From the NCBI GenBank assembly GCA_020854835.1, contig JAHKLX010000038.1:62001-126000 (forward strand): a stretch of 64,000 nt of DNA, read 5' to 3'. A program made the translations under genes and the position numbers. Below are positions 43,430-53,840 of this stretch, piece by piece (the stretch's first letter is position 1; each line of letters starts with the position of its first letter). The notes under the pieces were generated by a model. That model searched no databases, was not told the origin of the DNA, and saw nothing but the letters and a program-made list of their open reading frames with translations. The DNA is from Microcaldota archaeon. Its GTDB lineage: Archaea > Micrarchaeota > Micrarchaeia > Anstonellales > JAGGVH01.

Positions 43430-45121
43430 TCACTGTCTGCTTAAAATAATTATTGCGACAGATTGTATCAGAATAATGAACAAGCCTACACCAACCAAAA
43501 TCATTAGATTGTTAAAAGAATTAATTTTAGAATAGTCACACTCAGTTTGCAATTCGTCAAAATGTATATCTTCCTTTTGAAGAGTGTCATAAACATCTTC
43601 ATAAGCATTATCAAAATAAACTGCCATAATCATTAGTTTATATGCTTCTTCTTCATTTCCATTTTTCAACAAATACATGCCCTGCCCAAAATATAATTTT
43701 CCCCACAATCCTTTTGGAGTATACACTTCAGCAACATCCAATATCAGTCCCATATCCTCATCATCACCATCATTTGCCCTTTGTAAAGCTTGTGCAAAAG
43801 CGCTTTCATAGACTGCTGCAATGTATTGTTTGTTATCTAGATTATCTTTGGCTAGAGAATAATGCCAAACTGCATCTGATGAAGGATTGGGTGAGCGAGT
43901 CAATATTTTTTCGGTTTCTAAAATCCATTTTTCAGCTGTTTTTTGGACTTTGTTCTCATTTATTGTTTCTCCTGAGGTGTCCATAGTATTTAACAACAAA
44001 CTTACTTTCAACCATGCTGATGCATAAGACAAATCATAAGCTAAAGAATATTGTTCGTCACCTACTGCTTCTATTTGATCACCAACAGCTTCAACCTTAC
44101 TTTTTGCCCAAGTATACCTCATATAACCTCCCACTACCGATTCAAAATTTTTATCTGTTTTTTCGGTTACGGGTTCGAATTCTTGAACAGTTTTGTTGAT
44201 GTGTGAATGATATAATTTTAGATTTTGATATTTTGTTAAGTATTCTACAAATAATAGATCAGTATAATGTAAAAATAAATTATTTGCAGCTGTAAACTTG
44301 TAACCTTTTTCATTTAATTTGTTTTGATATTCAATATCATCTATCATAAAACCCACTATGTTCGACAAGATAGAGGTATTCGGAGAAATTGTATCAACTT
44401 CATCAAGAACCTCATAGCCCAAACCATAAACAACTGTATCAAAATTATTTATATTTTCTGTTTGTAAATCTTCAACATTAAGATTTGGGTGCGGGAGAGA
44501 ATAACTAACTTCGGGAAGCTCCTCATCTGAAAAAACATAATTAAACAAAGTATCAATATCCTCAACATGAACAATAGTAACACCATATTTCTCATTTATC
44601 GTTGAAACGAGGAGATAATCTTTATTGGATACAATTGGAGTTATAAAATAATTTTTATTGTATATTGATGCTGTTTTGGCTTTGCCATCCAATCCACCCA
44701 CAGAACCAATACTGCCGCGCGTATTAACTGAACCAGTTATGATAATATCATCTCTCATGGTTTGATTTGTGATTGCACTATAAACTGCACATGTGAATAA
44801 TGCTCCTGCAGAAGGACCATCTATAAATCGTGCGCTGCTAGGTATTGTATAAAAAACATTGCATTCATTTAAATTGTGTCCTGATTTTTTGAAAGCGAGT
44901 TCAACTGCGTTTTGTGCAGATTGCTGCGTACTGATGCCAATATATGGATCGATAGAAGTGTAAACATTTCCATCTCCTTCAGCAACTAAAACATATATTT
45001 TCAATAATCCTCCTTTCGCATCCCCCACAATTGCAGGCGCCTCAACAACCGCCAAGCCTGTAGGGCATTTTGAAAATACAATTGATGATATAAACAAAAA
45101 CAATATTAATATTTTTTTCAT
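43430..45121 (-). CDS. Secreted Lon-like (S16) serine protease, membrane-anchored
   Basis: 563 residues from ATG 45121 (after GGTGGGTGTGATA). N-terminal signal peptide, then an S16 domain with the catalytic Ser in DGPSAG (Ser104) and Lys in GGLDGKAKTA (Lys147), no AAA domain. The long helical C-terminal part (residues about 220-535) ends in a membrane helix (LVGVGLFIILIQSVAIIILS) and short tail. The active site should lie outside the cell, anchored at the C-terminus. Substrate processing or quality control of exported proteins is likely. Confidence 0.88.
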   Translation of the reverse strand: MKKILILFLFISSIVFSKCPTGLAVVEAPAIVGDAKGGLLKIYVLVAEGDGNVYTSIDPYIGISTQQSAQNAVELAFKKSGHNLNECNVFYTIPSSARFIDGPSAGALFTCAVYSAITNQTMRDDIIITGSVNTRGSIGSVGGLDGKAKTASIYNKNYFITPIVSNKDYLLVSTINEKYGVTIVHVEDIDTLFNYVFSDEELPEVSYSLPHPNLNVEDLQTENINNFDTVVYGLGYEVLDEVDTISPNTSILSNIVGFMIDDIEYQNKLNEKGYKFTAANNLFLHYTDLLFVEYLTKYQNLKLYHSHINKTVQEFEPVTEKTDKNFESVVGGYMRYTWAKSKVEAVGDQIEAVGDEQYSLAYDLSYASAWLKVSLLLNTMDTSGETINENKVQKTAEKWILETEKILTRSPNPSSDAVWHYSLAKDNLDNKQYIAAVYESAFAQALQRANDGDDEDMGLILDVAEVYTPKGLWGKLYFGQGMYLLKNGNEEEAYKLMIMAVYFDNAYEDVYDTLQKEDIHFDELQTECDYSKINSFNNLMILVGVGLFIILIQSVAIIILSRQ

Positions 45122-45234
45122 TATCACACCCACCTTCTATGTTTTGAAACAAAACAAACTTTTGAAAATCAAAAACTGTTTTGTAATATGCGCTCGCCGG
45201 GAATCGAACCCGGTTCTCAAGCTTATTCCAAACC

Positions 45235-45427: not shown

Positions 45428-45502
45428 AGCGGGATGGGGCAGCCAGGAGTGCCCGCCGGGCTCATAACCCGGAGGTCGGTAGTTCAAATCTACCTCCCGC
45501 TA
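45428..45502 (+). tRNA. Initiator tRNA-Met(CAU)
   Basis: 75 nt, no intron. AGCGGGA/TCCCGCT acceptor with the A1:U72 pair of archaeal initiators, discriminator A, and the GGG-C-U-C-A-U-A-A-CCC anticodon arm of three consecutive G:C pairs. T-loop TTCAAAT. No CCA encoded. Its last 13 bp overlap the end of the convergent 1199-residue gene. Confidence 0.96.
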
Positions 45503-48500
45503 TAATTAATTTTAACGGAATTAGTGACAGCATTTTCTGGAAGGGGTTTAGTAAAGGGATGTTTTTCCACAAAAGTTTTATATTTTGAAAACATTTCAAT
45601 TTTATCCCAGAAATTTATATCGGAAAATAGGGAAAAGGCATTATTTTCTCCAAGTTTATCGATTATTATCCCCAGACCTTTCGCGTACTCCTGACCTGTA
45701 GTCATTCTGTCTTCAACAATTTTCATAGCGCATTTGCATACAGCGGGTTTTGACATAGATTCTGCTTTATCGAGGATAGTTTTTACAGCAACATCATATG
45801 GAACTAGGGGTAAAAGAATCTTGTGAAGATTCTGTGGGGCGTTGTTCATATAAAAATTCAAAAGCTTATCATAAAAAATGTGGGCCCCTTCATTTTGTTT
45901 TATGTAGTCTGAACCTCCAAAAGAAACAATTCCATCAATAAGTGATTCAATACCAAAATATTTATTGTATGAAAGTTCACGAAGTATAGACTCTGTCCTA
46001 TTGGGGTCATTTTGATTTAAAACCGCCTCTAAAAACTCAGATTTTTGATCTTCTGTAAAAACCCTCCAAGCGTATGCGACAGTTTCACGCACTCCAAAAT
46101 TTTCAAACAGGGTATTCAATGTTTCTGAACGGTTATATTCCCACATATGTTTTAGAGTGTCAGATGCATAAGCTGTAATTTTGGCGACTTGAAAAGTTTT
46201 ATCTTTTCCAATTTTTTCTCTAAATATTTCATAAGCTGTATCTACTCCAAAATTACTGCACAAATACTCATATAATCCCAAGCTAAGATTATGGTTTGGT
46301 TTTAAAGCAGTTTCAATTCCTATGTCCCCCATCTCAACAAATGCATTGTACATTTCATTGTGATCGTTTTTTTCTTTCAACTTATTTATCACAATACTAA
46401 CTCCTTTATTTTCAGATACTGTTATTTTTAAAATATCAATTAAAGATGTTGTTTTTTCCATATGTTCAATTGCGTAAGTAATACTTTTCGAAGTTAAAAC
46501 ATCATAAGCATTTTTAACGAGTCCAATATCTAAAAGAAGATCTGCAGTCTGCTCTCTTGATACTCCGTGTTTTCCCAAATTTCCTAGCATTTTTCGAGTT
46601 TGGTTTTTGCCTTCAGTTTCATCAATATCATATAAAACCTTGAATCCTTGTCTAATGATATCATGCTTAATACAATATTCAGTATATTCATCAAGATTTG
46701 AAACTTTGTTTAGAAGCACTAAGAATTTGTTTAAAGTTTTGGGTTGCAGTGCATTTGCATTTTCATCCATACCTAATGAGCTTTCAAATATTTTTACTGC
46801 TTCGGGCAAAACAAAATCCTCAGATATATAATCTATAACTTCATTTGAATACTTCTCCATTGCCTTTATAGTTCGCTCAATTCCCCAAATTTTAATTAAA
46901 CCATTATAAAGAATCCACACCCCTGTTTTTGAGATGTTTGGGGACATTTCAGTATCCAGGGGTTTTGTGGATTCGTTTAAGATTTTGAGCATACGATCTA
47001 CAATTTCAATATCGGAATTTTTTTCTTTTTCTAGATATTTAACTGCTGCAAAAACAAAATTATTATGTATTAATAATCTCAAAAACATATCTTTAGGTAT
47101 AATTTTATCAACATAAGATGAAAATTGAAAAGGATTTTGGCCAGATGCTTTATTTAAAAAAGTCTCCAAGTCATCTATATCCTTGGCTAAAAGTAAAGAT
47201 GCCTCCAAACCAATACATTTTATTGTATCGATAGGTTTGTGGATTAGGGAGAATATATACGATTCAAAATGGCCAGATTGTAAAAGTATTTTTGAAGATA
47301 TTTCTTTTTTTGGTCCGATTAAATTTGCCCTGACAAGTTCGCGATATGCAATTTCCAACTCTCCCCTATCATTTGCCAGATTTAATGTTTCTTCCTCACC
47401 AAGAATATCAAAAGTTAATAAGTAAACATCCCTATAGCTATTACACAAAGCAAACAATTTTTCAAATCCCATTATGTTTCCAAATTTATTGTATAGAATA
47501 TCTGCAGTTTTTTTGTCCCCTAAACCTTTCAGAATTTCAACATAAGCTTTATTATCGGGAAATTTATCAAGCAAACAATTAAGTATATCTTTTTTGTAAC
47601 CTTTATCATAAAAAAATTCTATTGTTGTTGAAATTTTGTTGTGATGTTTGTTGTTGACTTTCCAAAAAACATAGTTAAAACCTTTTTTTTCAATTAAATT
47701 TACCAATCCTTCTGCATTTTCAAAGGCTATATTTTCTTCAAGATTTGATAAAACTTCTGGTGAAATGCCACAAGATTTTAAAAGATCATATAAAAATATT
47801 AATTCATTTTTATGTTTTGCAACCATTAAAACAGTGCCGTATTTCTCATATTTTGAAAGCAGTTTGTAAACATCCTCTTTAGAAAAAACACTCGATAATT
47901 TATCATATACCTCCCCTATGTCCTCAAATTGATATTTCAAAATATCGTAAAATCTGTTTCCAAAAATGGTCCTAAGAGTTTTGATTTTATCTGAATCTTC
48001 TCCAGCCAACAATCTGTAAACTTTTGGACCGTAACCTTGATTATAATAAGTTAAAACTGCAAATTCCAAACCTTTCTTTTCAATCAATTCATTGAAAATT
48101 TTTTGTTCTGTGCTTTTTTTGATACTGTAATCGACAAGAATTTTCCAAATTGACTCCTTGGAAATTTCCGATGGTGCATTCTTCAACAGGTGTAAATTTT
48201 CTGATGTCAAATCTAAAGCTTCAATAATGCCTATAGATTCTGCCAAAATTTTTAAACTTTCTAAAAATTTTTTATTATCTGAAAACAAACAACTTAAAAC
48301 AGTGGACCTGTATTTATCAAGAAATGTTTTAACTGCCGCTTTCTCTCCATGTTCTCTGGCAACTAATGCATAAGCTGTATGAACTGAATTCATATCAATA
48401 TATTTTTTTACCTGTTTCCGTATGGCAGACTCCTTGTCTATATACTCTATATGTGGGGCATATTTAGCATATGTGTTTGCACTAGGTTTAGAGTGTTCTT

Positions 48501-49089
48501 TTTGAATTGGCGGAGTAAAAGACTTTTCCTCATTTTTATTTGATAAAAAAAGTTTTGGATCAATTGGTTTTGAAAGTGAAACAAAATCCTTTTCATCAGA
48601 GAGATCTGATTCCACATATGATTCATTGCTCTGAAGCAAGATATATTCTTTTATCGTATTTGCTTTTTTCAATTTTGAAATTAATGGTTCAAGTGATTCA
48701 ATAATTTCTTTACCAGTATTGAATTTTAAACTGCAATCGATCGCATATCTTAAAAAAGTATATTTTTCATTGACCTCTGCATCATATAGTCCTATTTTTA
48801 ACATCAGCAAGTCTGTGTCTGGTTCTGAGCCAGAATAAAACAATAACGAACTCATTATTTGTTCGAATATATAATTGACATCCAATTGATAAGTTTCAAT
48901 CTGTGCATGTAATTTTGGCAAGATATTGTTGACAATATCAAATATTTTTTGATCTTCAGAAACATCAGATTGAAGGAATGTAGGATAAACTCTATTGATA
49001 AGTATGAATGCACCAGGAATTCCTTTTTTTTGTTTGTTTGAATTGCTGAACGTTCCTTCATCATTAGTAGTACTATCGTCCCCAAACAT
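45490..49089 (-). CDS. Very large alpha-solenoid-like hypothetical protein (1199 aa)
   Basis: 1199 residues, cytosolic, no signal or membrane segment and no enzyme motif. After a low-complexity N-terminus (SNSNKQKKG) and a roughly 120-residue helical domain, residues about 210-1190 read as continuous amphipathic helix pairs with repeating patterns like EKKGLEFAVLTYYNQGYGPKVYRLL and CNSYRDVYLLTFDILGEEETLNLAN, suggesting TPR/HEAT-like solenoid repeats of about 35-45 residues. Cysteine-poor. A scaffold role is a guess. The last four codons lie antisense within the initiator tRNA 3' end. Confidence 0.75.
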   Translation of the reverse strand: MFGDDSTTNDEGTFSNSNKQKKGIPGAFILINRVYPTFLQSDVSEDQKIFDIVNNILPKLHAQIETYQLDVNYIFEQIMSSLLFYSGSEPDTDLLMLKIGLYDAEVNEKYTFLRYAIDCSLKFNTGKEIIESLEPLISKLKKANTIKEYILLQSNESYVESDLSDEKDFVSLSKPIDPKLFLSNKNEEKSFTPPIQKEHSKPSANTYAKYAPHIEYIDKESAIRKQVKKYIDMNSVHTAYALVAREHGEKAAVKTFLDKYRSTVLSCLFSDNKKFLESLKILAESIGIIEALDLTSENLHLLKNAPSEISKESIWKILVDYSIKKSTEQKIFNELIEKKGLEFAVLTYYNQGYGPKVYRLLAGEDSDKIKTLRTIFGNRFYDILKYQFEDIGEVYDKLSSVFSKEDVYKLLSKYEKYGTVLMVAKHKNELIFLYDLLKSCGISPEVLSNLEENIAFENAEGLVNLIEKKGFNYVFWKVNNKHHNKISTTIEFFYDKGYKKDILNCLLDKFPDNKAYVEILKGLGDKKTADILYNKFGNIMGFEKLFALCNSYRDVYLLTFDILGEEETLNLANDRGELEIAYRELVRANLIGPKKEISSKILLQSGHFESYIFSLIHKPIDTIKCIGLEASLLLAKDIDDLETFLNKASGQNPFQFSSYVDKIIPKDMFLRLLIHNNFVFAAVKYLEKEKNSDIEIVDRMLKILNESTKPLDTEMSPNISKTGVWILYNGLIKIWGIERTIKAMEKYSNEVIDYISEDFVLPEAVKIFESSLGMDENANALQPKTLNKFLVLLNKVSNLDEYTEYCIKHDIIRQGFKVLYDIDETEGKNQTRKMLGNLGKHGVSREQTADLLLDIGLVKNAYDVLTSKSITYAIEHMEKTTSLIDILKITVSENKGVSIVINKLKEKNDHNEMYNAFVEMGDIGIETALKPNHNLSLGLYEYLCSNFGVDTAYEIFREKIGKDKTFQVAKITAYASDTLKHMWEYNRSETLNTLFENFGVRETVAYAWRVFTEDQKSEFLEAVLNQNDPNRTESILRELSYNKYFGIESLIDGIVSFGGSDYIKQNEGAHIFYDKLLNFYMNNAPQNLHKILLPLVPYDVAVKTILDKAESMSKPAVCKCAMKIVEDRMTTGQEYAKGLGIIIDKLGENNAFSLFSDINFWDKIEMFSKYKTFVEKHPFTKPLPENAVTNSVKINYSGR

Positions 49090-50883: not shown

Positions 50884-51002
50884 TGGATTTGTATTGTATT
50901 GTAAATTAAAAAACGTTTCTGTTTTTTATGAAATTAAACTTATATATCGCCTAATTATCATAACAAAACATTTAAAAGCACAATATTGTATAACTATAAT
51001 AC

Positions 51003-53840
51003 ATGTATAATAACAAATCCAACACTCCTCCTATTTCAATAAAAAAACGATTTAAGAATGCGAATGATAGGGAAAAATTGGATATATTACTGGAGATTAT
51101 AAACTTATTTGAAGAGGCTCCCACAGTACATACTATAGCAAAAAATATAGGGGTAAGTGGAGGTACTATTTACGCAAAAAAAGGAGCAAATCCTTCTGTT
51201 GGTGTTTTGGGAAGAAATCCCGAATTTATCCAAGCGTTTATTGATGCATGCAACTCTAAAGGATCAAATTATCAATTATATGATTTTGGCATCGGGGAGA
51301 AACCAGATACTGATTCAAGCAATTTCCATAAACTGAGCGATGAAGAAAAACTAAATATTTTACTGAGAACTGTAGAAGAATTAGAAACTATCCCGACAAT
51401 AAATTCTGTTTGTAAGAAACTTGGAGTTTCGACCAGCACTGTTTATAATTTAAAAAAACATGGGAAAGCAGTGGGGCTGTTGACAAGAAATCCTGATTTT
51501 ATGGATAAATTCAGTGATGCTGTTATCCAACGAATAAGAAATATGCCTTTAGATCTTTTTATAAAAGACATCTCAAATCCCAAACCAAATATTCCTGAGG
51601 AGCATAGAAAAGAAGTTGATCTTCGGTTATTTGAATACCTGATTAAAGAGACTGAAAATTATGATGGAGTACCTAGCAGAAATCAAATTTCAAAAAACAT
51701 AGGGGTTTCGATGGGTGCAATATACCTAAAAAATCAAAAAACCAAATCCTCTGGACTGTTGGCAAGAAATCCCAAATTTAAAAAAATATTTGATGATACA
51801 ATAGTTAGAAAGATTAATTCTTTAGATGAAAAAATATTTTTAGAAGAACTATCAAAATCCTATCCATCCATGCCCAAGTTTCAACAATATGCCATCGATA
51901 AAAGAATTTTTGATATTTTTATTAGAGAGATGAAAAAATTTGAAGGTGTTCCTATAAAAATTGCAGTTGTTGAAAAAATGTATCCTGATAACGGTTTTTA
52001 TCAAAGACATATATTGAATGGATTAAATAATGCTTTTAAAAGAAATCCTGATTTTGAAAAAGAATTCAACAAATTTACAGATAGAAAAGTGAATGCTTTG
52101 AGTGACAAAGAATTTTTTGAAGCAATTTCAAAACAGATATCTGATCTTTCAAAATCGCCCTTAAAAGCAATTGATGTTAGACTATTAAATATAATACTAG
52201 GAGAAATTGAAACGTGTGAGGAACCAAAGATGGGAGAAATTCTGTCAAAACTAGGACATTCGCACAGCACTATATATGCTAAATTTTGGGAGATGCCAAT
52301 TAAAGGAATATTCGTTAGAAATCCTGAATTTATTCCCGTTTTTAACGAAGTTTTCAGAAGAAAAAATTCAGAATTTGATTTTGTTGAATTTAGAACAGGG
52401 AATGATAAAAAACAAAAAAAAGAAATAAAAAGTATGTTAACTGGAGATGAAAAAGCAGAAATTAAAAATAAGTTCAGCCCCCAAACAATAAAACTACAAA
52501 AAGCATATGAAAAATTTGCAAATATGGTTGTAAGAAATAATTTTGATTTGTTTGAAAAAAGATACGTGCTTGAAATTGCAAAATTTGAAAGAAAATTGAG
52601 GGATGTTTTTGTTGAAGAAAGAGTGCAAGTAGAAGATACTGATTTTGCTTTTGTTAAAAATAATTTGACAGTTGGTGAAAAAAAACCAGAATACAGAATA
52701 AGTTCGTATGCAGACAAATCATTTTCTACAATTTTTGCAAATAATTCTTTGTACGCCAAGAATGTTATACAGCATACAGGATTAATTTTATCTGAAGCAA
52801 ACCGGCTTTTATTTGCAGGAGGTGTGTTGATAATAACGTTTCCTTTAACCTATTCAATTACTAAAAATTTTGATGAATTAATAAAGAATTGTGGTTTCGA
52901 ACTTGAAGAAGTAGAACGTTTCACACCATCAAATAAATCAGTTAAAAAAATAGAAGATATTTGCAAGTTATTTTCTAAAAATGAAATATGGTTTGGAGGG
53001 TATGCATTATACCTTAGAAAAACTAGAGATATATCCTGTCCCAAAAATTTCAAATGTTTTTATCCAGTCAAATTAACCAATAGTGAAAGAGAATTCTATA
53101 AAATAAATATGCCAGAAATTCCGATAGAAGTTTTTGAAACCATGGAATTTGATACAACTAAACAAAACGCAATGGAACCTTTTAGAAGCAGGACTAATTC
53201 ATCAACACCAGGCAAAATAGAATGTTTATTTGACCATGACTTTGCCAAAAGTTTGGGCATAACCATAGAATATGAAAACTGTTGTTTCGTTGACAACTCG
53301 CGAAAAAGTGAAAGAACAGGTAGAAAGATTAAAGAAGTCGAACAAAAAACAAATAAAAAAATAAAAGAAATGGATAATAGGATTAATTTTGGAACTCTTG
53401 ATGTAAGACTTGCAGTTTATGATATTTACAATATAGCTATGCGCAAAACAGGATTTGATCCAGTAACAGTGGAAAAAATAGATGGATCCCCTTATTTATA
53501 TGATATTGAAAGAAAAATTTATATAGATTTTTTAGATTCGTTGTATGATAGAATAGAAGAGGGTGTGGAAGGATTAGCCCCAAAACCAGTAGATATGCCG
53601 GGAGAGAACTATCAAAAAAGCTGGGACATGTATTTACTAGAGAACGGAATCAATGAATTTTTAGATGCGTATAAACAAAGAACTTCAGAAGAATTTTCAT
53701 TTAAAAAGCTTATAATATTAACAAAAGCTTTGTTGATGAGCGCAAACAAACGTGAAAAGGTTATATCTACTTTTAATGGTCCAAAGAGTGAAAAAACTGA
53801 GTTTGAAAAACCAGATTTGAAAAAAGGTTTAAAAAATTAA
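51003..53840 (+). CDS. Novel protein: five HTH-like repeats plus methyltransferase-like domain
   Basis: 945 residues, unrecognised as a whole. Residues about 24-83, 115-175, 207-266, 301-357 and 392-450 are five copies of a unit with a helix, a turn such as IGVSMGAIY (unit 3) or LGVSTSTVY (unit 2), and the closing motif GLLxRNPxF (units 1-3; units 4-5 keep RNPxF). These look like helix-turn-helix DNA-binding modules. Residues 560-640 resemble the C-terminal half of a Rossmann methyltransferase (SEANRLLFAGGVLIITFPLTY then NCGFELEEVERF), but no SAM glycine loop is clear. The last 200 residues are helical and charged. It lies between DNA ligase and PolD genes. Confidence 0.8.
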   Translation: MYNNKSNTPPISIKKRFKNANDREKLDILLEIINLFEEAPTVHTIAKNIGVSGGTIYAKKGANPSVGVLGRNPEFIQAFIDACNSKGSNYQLYDFGIGEKPDTDSSNFHKLSDEEKLNILLRTVEELETIPTINSVCKKLGVSTSTVYNLKKHGKAVGLLTRNPDFMDKFSDAVIQRIRNMPLDLFIKDISNPKPNIPEEHRKEVDLRLFEYLIKETENYDGVPSRNQISKNIGVSMGAIYLKNQKTKSSGLLARNPKFKKIFDDTIVRKINSLDEKIFLEELSKSYPSMPKFQQYAIDKRIFDIFIREMKKFEGVPIKIAVVEKMYPDNGFYQRHILNGLNNAFKRNPDFEKEFNKFTDRKVNALSDKEFFEAISKQISDLSKSPLKAIDVRLLNIILGEIETCEEPKMGEILSKLGHSHSTIYAKFWEMPIKGIFVRNPEFIPVFNEVFRRKNSEFDFVEFRTGNDKKQKKEIKSMLTGDEKAEIKNKFSPQTIKLQKAYEKFANMVVRNNFDLFEKRYVLEIAKFERKLRDVFVEERVQVEDTDFAFVKNNLTVGEKKPEYRISSYADKSFSTIFANNSLYAKNVIQHTGLILSEANRLLFAGGVLIITFPLTYSITKNFDELIKNCGFELEEVERFTPSNKSVKKIEDICKLFSKNEIWFGGYALYLRKTRDISCPKNFKCFYPVKLTNSEREFYKINMPEIPIEVFETMEFDTTKQNAMEPFRSRTNSSTPGKIECLFDHDFAKSLGITIEYENCCFVDNSRKSERTGRKIKEVEQKTNKKIKEMDNRINFGTLDVRLAVYDIYNIAMRKTGFDPVTVEKIDGSPYLYDIERKIYIDFLDSLYDRIEEGVEGLAPKPVDMPGENYQKSWDMYLLENGINEFLDAYKQRTSEEFSFKKLIILTKALLMSANKREKVISTFNGPKSEKTEFEKPDLKKGLKN

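Follow-up and report, generated by a model that had tools for sequence, protein, structure and literature searches.

The closest described counterparts of the repeats treated here are the helix-turn-helix (HTH) domains of resolvases, transposases and homeodomain-like regulators, which likewise carry an HTH with a GVS-type turn. The window protein (the window being the whole 64,000-nucleotide stretch of DNA that was analysed) differs from these in having five copies, each set in a frame of ~92 aa with extra helices, and in reaching no family cut-off. The core of the protein family has the fold and the element order of class I SAM-dependent methyltransferases (BioC and similar), but motif I (GxGxG) is replaced, and conventional SAM binding by the core is predicted to be lost. 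This core also resembles, in fold or sequence, the methyltransferase-like domains of three other proteins: anamorsin, nucleomethylin (RRP8) and SAMTOR. In anamorsin the methyltransferase fold serves a non-enzymatic purpose; in contrast to anamorsin/CIAPIN1, the core is here fused to HTH repeats, and the C-terminal Fe-S (CIAPIN1) domain was not matched. TAL effector arrays offer an analogy only, being tandem repeats of changing number, as in the window family, for which DNA recognition is likewise proposed; their repeats are ~34 aa (33-35 aa with a variable di-residue), whereas the units of the window family are 92-aa HTH units. A match to a TAL effector, obtained when the PDB was searched by sequence, was rejected, as it was the sum of 16 sub-threshold GLTxDQ matches with no significant single domain.

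The source assembly is 2.04 Mb in 145 contigs (87% complete, 5.6% contamination). From N to C terminus, the gene product consists of five ~92-aa repeats (aa 22-465), junction helices, a core (~aa 515-690) and a tail. The features of the locus are:

50971..50994, + strand: putative promoter region, with a TATA-like TTTAAAA (50971-50977) and a AATATTGTATAAC element (50982-50994)
51003..53840, + strand: whole gene, an intact ORF of 945 aa, ATG to TAA
51066..51290, + strand: HTH repeat 1, aa 22-96 (self-comparison, profile, AF2 model)
51339..51575, + strand: HTH repeat 2, aa 113-191, with the most sub-threshold Pfam HTH matches (profile, AF2 model)
51618..51854, + strand: HTH repeat 3, aa 206-284 (self-comparison, profile, AF2 model)
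51897..52130, + strand: HTH repeat 4, aa 299-376, turn degenerate (profile, AF2 model)
52173..52397, + strand: HTH repeat 5, aa 391-465, model confidence low (profile, AF2 model)
52398..52544, + strand: junction helices, with a GLTxDQ-type segment in relatives
52545..53072, + strand: pseudo-methyltransferase domain, ~aa 515-690, limits approximate, with VLEIAKFERKL where GxGxG is expected
53073..53837, + strand: tail, the first part common to the family, followed by a ~115-aa insertion otherwise found only in the paralogue of the same genome
53841..53857, + strand: perfect 6-bp hairpin TTTGGC-CACAA-GCCAAA directly 3' of the stop codon, a possible transcript end

The C-terminal half, tail included, had no match in the Pfam search, in keeping with the original prediction that the tail is novel.

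When the 945-aa protein was compared with itself, 40-residue windows scored 62-96 (BLOSUM62) against a background of ~20-36, and the high-scoring windows lay at offsets of ~91-93 residues or multiples of these, giving a period of ~92 aa. In a small, self-trained profile search five units were recovered, with domain E values ranging from 2e-12 to 4e-18. The original prediction had a unit IGVSxGxIY...G-LxRNPxF occurring five times. There are indeed five units and RNPxF is present five times, but the IGVSxGxIY half is clear only in repeats 1-3; it is recognisable as LGHSHSTIY in repeat 5 and degenerate (MYPDNG-FYQ) in repeat 4. The consensus of the family repeat unit is ERIDEIILEAIESMEGIPTAKAIAKALGEKGIYYSKNSISRRLKRNPELKEAIEKKTIEKIENLSDEEFFRQI.

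The HTH-like reading of these units, for which structure prediction and profile searches had been proposed as checks, gained support from both. In the AlphaFold2 (AF2) model of the window protein, the first four repeats are helical units predicted with confidence (pLDDT mostly 77-90), and repeats 1-3 each contain a canonical HTH made up of H2, a three-residue GVS turn and H3. Model confidence is low for repeat 5 and for most of the C-terminal half. In a relative (L067) the repeats were modelled at pLDDT ~75-94, each as a bundle of ~5 helices. In the Pfam search, 12 HTH-type families matched repeat 2 at one shared position (E 0.001-0.1, all below cut-off), and weak matches in repeats 1 and 2 were to HTH_23, HTH_Tnp_1, HTH_7, TetR_N and CENP-B_N, while ten shuffled repeats gave no Pfam HTH match. 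No match reached the gathering cut-off, the best being TetR_N with 21.1 bits against the 24 needed. Repeats 3-5 had no Pfam HTH match even at E 0.1, and most of the relatives' repeats, taken alone, had none to the HTH families.

Averaged over 64 repeats, the charge of H2-H3 is positive (~+1.2 to +1.6 per 13 columns) and that of H1 and H5 negative, a pattern that supports nucleic-acid binding, short of proof. A diversifying recognition helix was considered and rejected: the change between close repeats was 0.455 in H3 against 0.42, 0.42 and 0.40 in H2, H4 and H5, which is no useful margin, and the variable residues are not concentrated in H3.

The same models could be taken to depict an uninterrupted alpha-solenoid with protein or RNA as its ligand, in which the HTH-like element would be only a structural turn and the pseudo-methyltransferase would cap the scaffold. 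Long helices connect the repeats with little linker in both the L067 and the window-protein models, the charge of the repeats is near-neutral or acidic in some relatives and net-acidic in several, and Foldseek with the window-protein model placed no HTH protein among the top matches and returned weak armadillo/importin-type ones. The latter are poor, however, with TM-scores of ~0.1-0.2, the only clustered sequence matches are to HTH families and are absent from the shuffles, and the positive charge is concentrated on H2-H3. A solenoid is considered rather unlikely, and DNA binding by the repeats is the function that we infer.

The core was predicted originally as half of a methyltransferase with no clear SAM loop. 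It is methyltransferase-like, but the fold is actually a near-complete class I one: the model of L067 has the Rossmann-like class I methyltransferase fold, and all 42 of its 42 Foldseek matches in the PDB with E<=0.001 were methyltransferase-fold proteins (prob 0.97-1.00). The low-confidence core of the window protein itself matched the anamorsin methyltransferase-like domain and nucleomethylin, its evidence for the fold being weaker than that from L067; the paralogue in the same genome has a weak Anamorsin_N match in Pfam. Bromodomain matches were non-significant and were rejected. The family profile also catches ordinary methyltransferases elsewhere in the phylum, at the motif IV-VI region. 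As for the SAM loop, the claim stood, since motif I (GxGxG) was absent from every family member examined. In its place the strand-1 loop reads LYPEPL, YYPAVI, IYGRIL and similar in relatives, and most members examined have a conserved S-x-Y-P/G loop. The core is best read as a pseudo-methyltransferase whose usual SAM site is missing because the strand-1 loop has lost GxGxG; the conserved substitute loop suggests that a non-standard function is retained.

That conserved loop, together with a fold that is clearly that of a methyltransferase, could also belong to an unusual active enzyme, guided by the repeats to DNA or RNA and with its cofactor site re-made around SxYP. We regard this as very unlikely, for GxGxG is kept by no member examined, and the window protein and its paralogue are without even the SxYP loop (AKFERKL and ARLENTL, respectively).

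The gene adjoins a divergent ATP-dependent DNA ligase gene and is followed downstream by UPF0147 and the PolD subunit genes DP1 and DP2. These neighbours had prompted the proposal that the protein acts in origin recognition, DNA marking or genome maintenance. A genome of the same genus (G001) has the same order as the window, namely a Lon-like protease, a 1142-aa protein, ligase, UPF0147, DP1 and DP2, but its ligase and UPF0147 ORFs lie only ~80 bp apart, without a repeat gene in the gap; no family member was found anywhere in that assembly (88% complete, with the empty site itself assembled through). The gene order ligase, repeat protein, UPF0147, DP1, DP2, whose conservation was to be checked, is thus kept in G001 with the repeat gene missing. 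UPF0147, DP1 and DP2 stand together in G002 and G005, where the ligase is missing from the stretch compared; in none of the three genomes compared besides G001 was the ligase found beside UPF0147-DP1. Relatives of the gene adjoin Trm5, LonB, enolase, Suf genes, UvrA, SerRS or FolD (gene names partly by eye). Scattered homologues in unrelated contexts had been named beforehand as the finding that would count against the proposal, and the contexts found are largely unrelated. The lost SAM motif further argues against DNA marking. Apart from the adjacency itself, then, conserved placement with ligase and PolD genes, as expected of a component of a replication cluster, was not observed, and most genomes of the phylum are without the gene. 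An origin or genome-maintenance factor of the ligase/PolD cluster is extremely improbable, being largely refuted by the empty site. The replication neighbourhood is uninformative on function because of this empty site and because members stand beside unrelated genes elsewhere.

Two further genes of this neighbourhood are conserved in G001. The 1199-aa predicted protein at 45490-49089 (- strand) has no Pfam match above cut-off and keeps its position; it is 29% identical to its G001 counterpart, compared with 55-71% for neighbours, and is therefore very fast-evolving. The gene at 43430-45133 (- strand) encodes a Lon-type (S16) protease-domain protein with an N-terminal signal-like and a C-terminal membrane-like segment.

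Of the 301 Micrarchaeota genomes covered by profile searches, 14 had the repeat. A contig search gave four Micrarchaeota loci. Micrarchaeota and 'ainarchaeum' MAGs are among the named relatives, and it is from these that the window was assigned to this phylum. Full-length or near-full-length members occur in the same order (G055, G064, G068, G031, G037 with two copies, G025, G056 and G010) and others in another family of the same class (G136, G137, G138 and G162); weaker, more divergent relatives were found in G044, G030, G034 and G002. Among the latter, a 1602-aa protein of G030 (L115:4216-9021) has four diverged copies of the family repeat and a 987-aa protein of G044 (L113:4450-7410) has one; both may represent a distant branch. 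The family is accessory and sporadically distributed. It looks undescribed, as was originally claimed for the architecture: no curated family matches or covers it, and no relevant paper was found in the literature searched.

Members have 2-5 repeats. Repeats 1 and 2 of the G010 member agree at 271 of 273 nt, which indicates a fresh tandem duplication. The window genome has a second, diverged family copy, split between contigs C73 and C72; a contaminant was rejected as its source, the composition fitting the same organism. Its C72 part (L009:550-1560) contains four units of another repeat (AAKVYVETDGNRSINAFSQWLIETYPN...), ~83-92 aa apart and belonging to no Pfam family, and the HTH array appears to have been partly replaced by this repeat. 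In several members (G055, G010, G162 and C73/C72) the contig ends within the array; the breaks fit repeat-rich or strain-variable DNA, weakly so as the assemblies are fragmented. In G031 and G037 two members lie in the same Suf cluster in different slots and on different strands. Between G136 and G137 the gene position is kept, with a protein identity of 74% against 64-98% for the neighbours, and therefore vertical descent also occurs. Mobile-element ends were sought and rejected, as neither terminal inverted repeats nor shared flanks could be made out convincingly.

Such turnover would suit a silencer of mobile elements or viruses whose array tracks invaders by repeat gain and loss, much as is the case for animal zinc-finger silencers, or alternatively a binding protein that belongs to a selfish element. 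The sporadic presence, the unrelated sites within one genus, the differing Suf-cluster slots, the two copies in some genomes and the duplication of repeats all agree with this. No transposase, integrase or defence genes were recognised beside the gene, however, PADLOC and PHROGs gave only short, weak matches, and no relatives were found in viral contigs, phages or plasmids. With the position stable between G136 and G137 and diversification not focused on H3, such a role is distinctly unlikely.

The AATATTGTATAAC element ends 8 nt before the ATG, which suggests that the gene is its own, near-leaderless transcription unit. Family genes in different contexts likewise have a TATA-like box upstream and then, near the ATG, a TATAAC-type element. 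TATAAC was found before 6 of 9 family genes as opposed to 1 of 242, the motif having been chosen after looking, and the Gibbs total for the upstream element of family genes was 119 versus 93.5 +/- 4.7. Since unrelated genes of these genomes, too, have a CATAATATATAAC-like element in front of them, an autoregulatory operator was rejected and a leaderless core-promoter feature is more likely. An exact CATAATATATAAC, with a TATA-like box upstream, abuts the ATG of a long ORF unrelated to the family (L158:1501; G000:C84:4293-4305), PLP-enzyme/threonine synthase-like by eye, and is possibly a recurring leaderless promoter type in the window genome.

The reading that we prefer, and to which we give about an even chance, is that of an accessory multi-HTH DNA-binding regulator with a non-enzymatic methyltransferase-fold head, which is not part of the replication machinery. 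Each ~92-residue repeat would form a helical unit built around a central HTH, whose second helix would sit in the DNA groove. Arranged in series, the repeats would let a single protein cover a long, composite, sequence-specific footprint, and duplication or loss of repeats would alter it. The methyltransferase-shaped C-terminal domain, with its usual SAM site gone, probably serves as a platform that binds proteins or ligands. The gene, with a promoter of its own, would most likely encode a transcriptional regulator or silencer. A bolder proposal, unlikely in our estimation, is an array of whole HTH units that would read DNA addressably, repeat by repeat, with a target that shifts by repeat duplication and shuffling and a dead methyltransferase that recruits effectors; by analogy it would be an archaeal counterpart of zinc-finger or TALE arrays.

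The analysis corrects a misleading guilt-by-neighbourhood reading of a gene beside the PolD genes and points to one more lineage that seems to have put the methyltransferase fold to new use without its cofactor. If DNA binding is true, the protein would be an uncommon example of HTH units that serve as a long modular array, one that grows and shrinks by tandem duplication, and it would sit in archaea with very small genomes and few known regulators.
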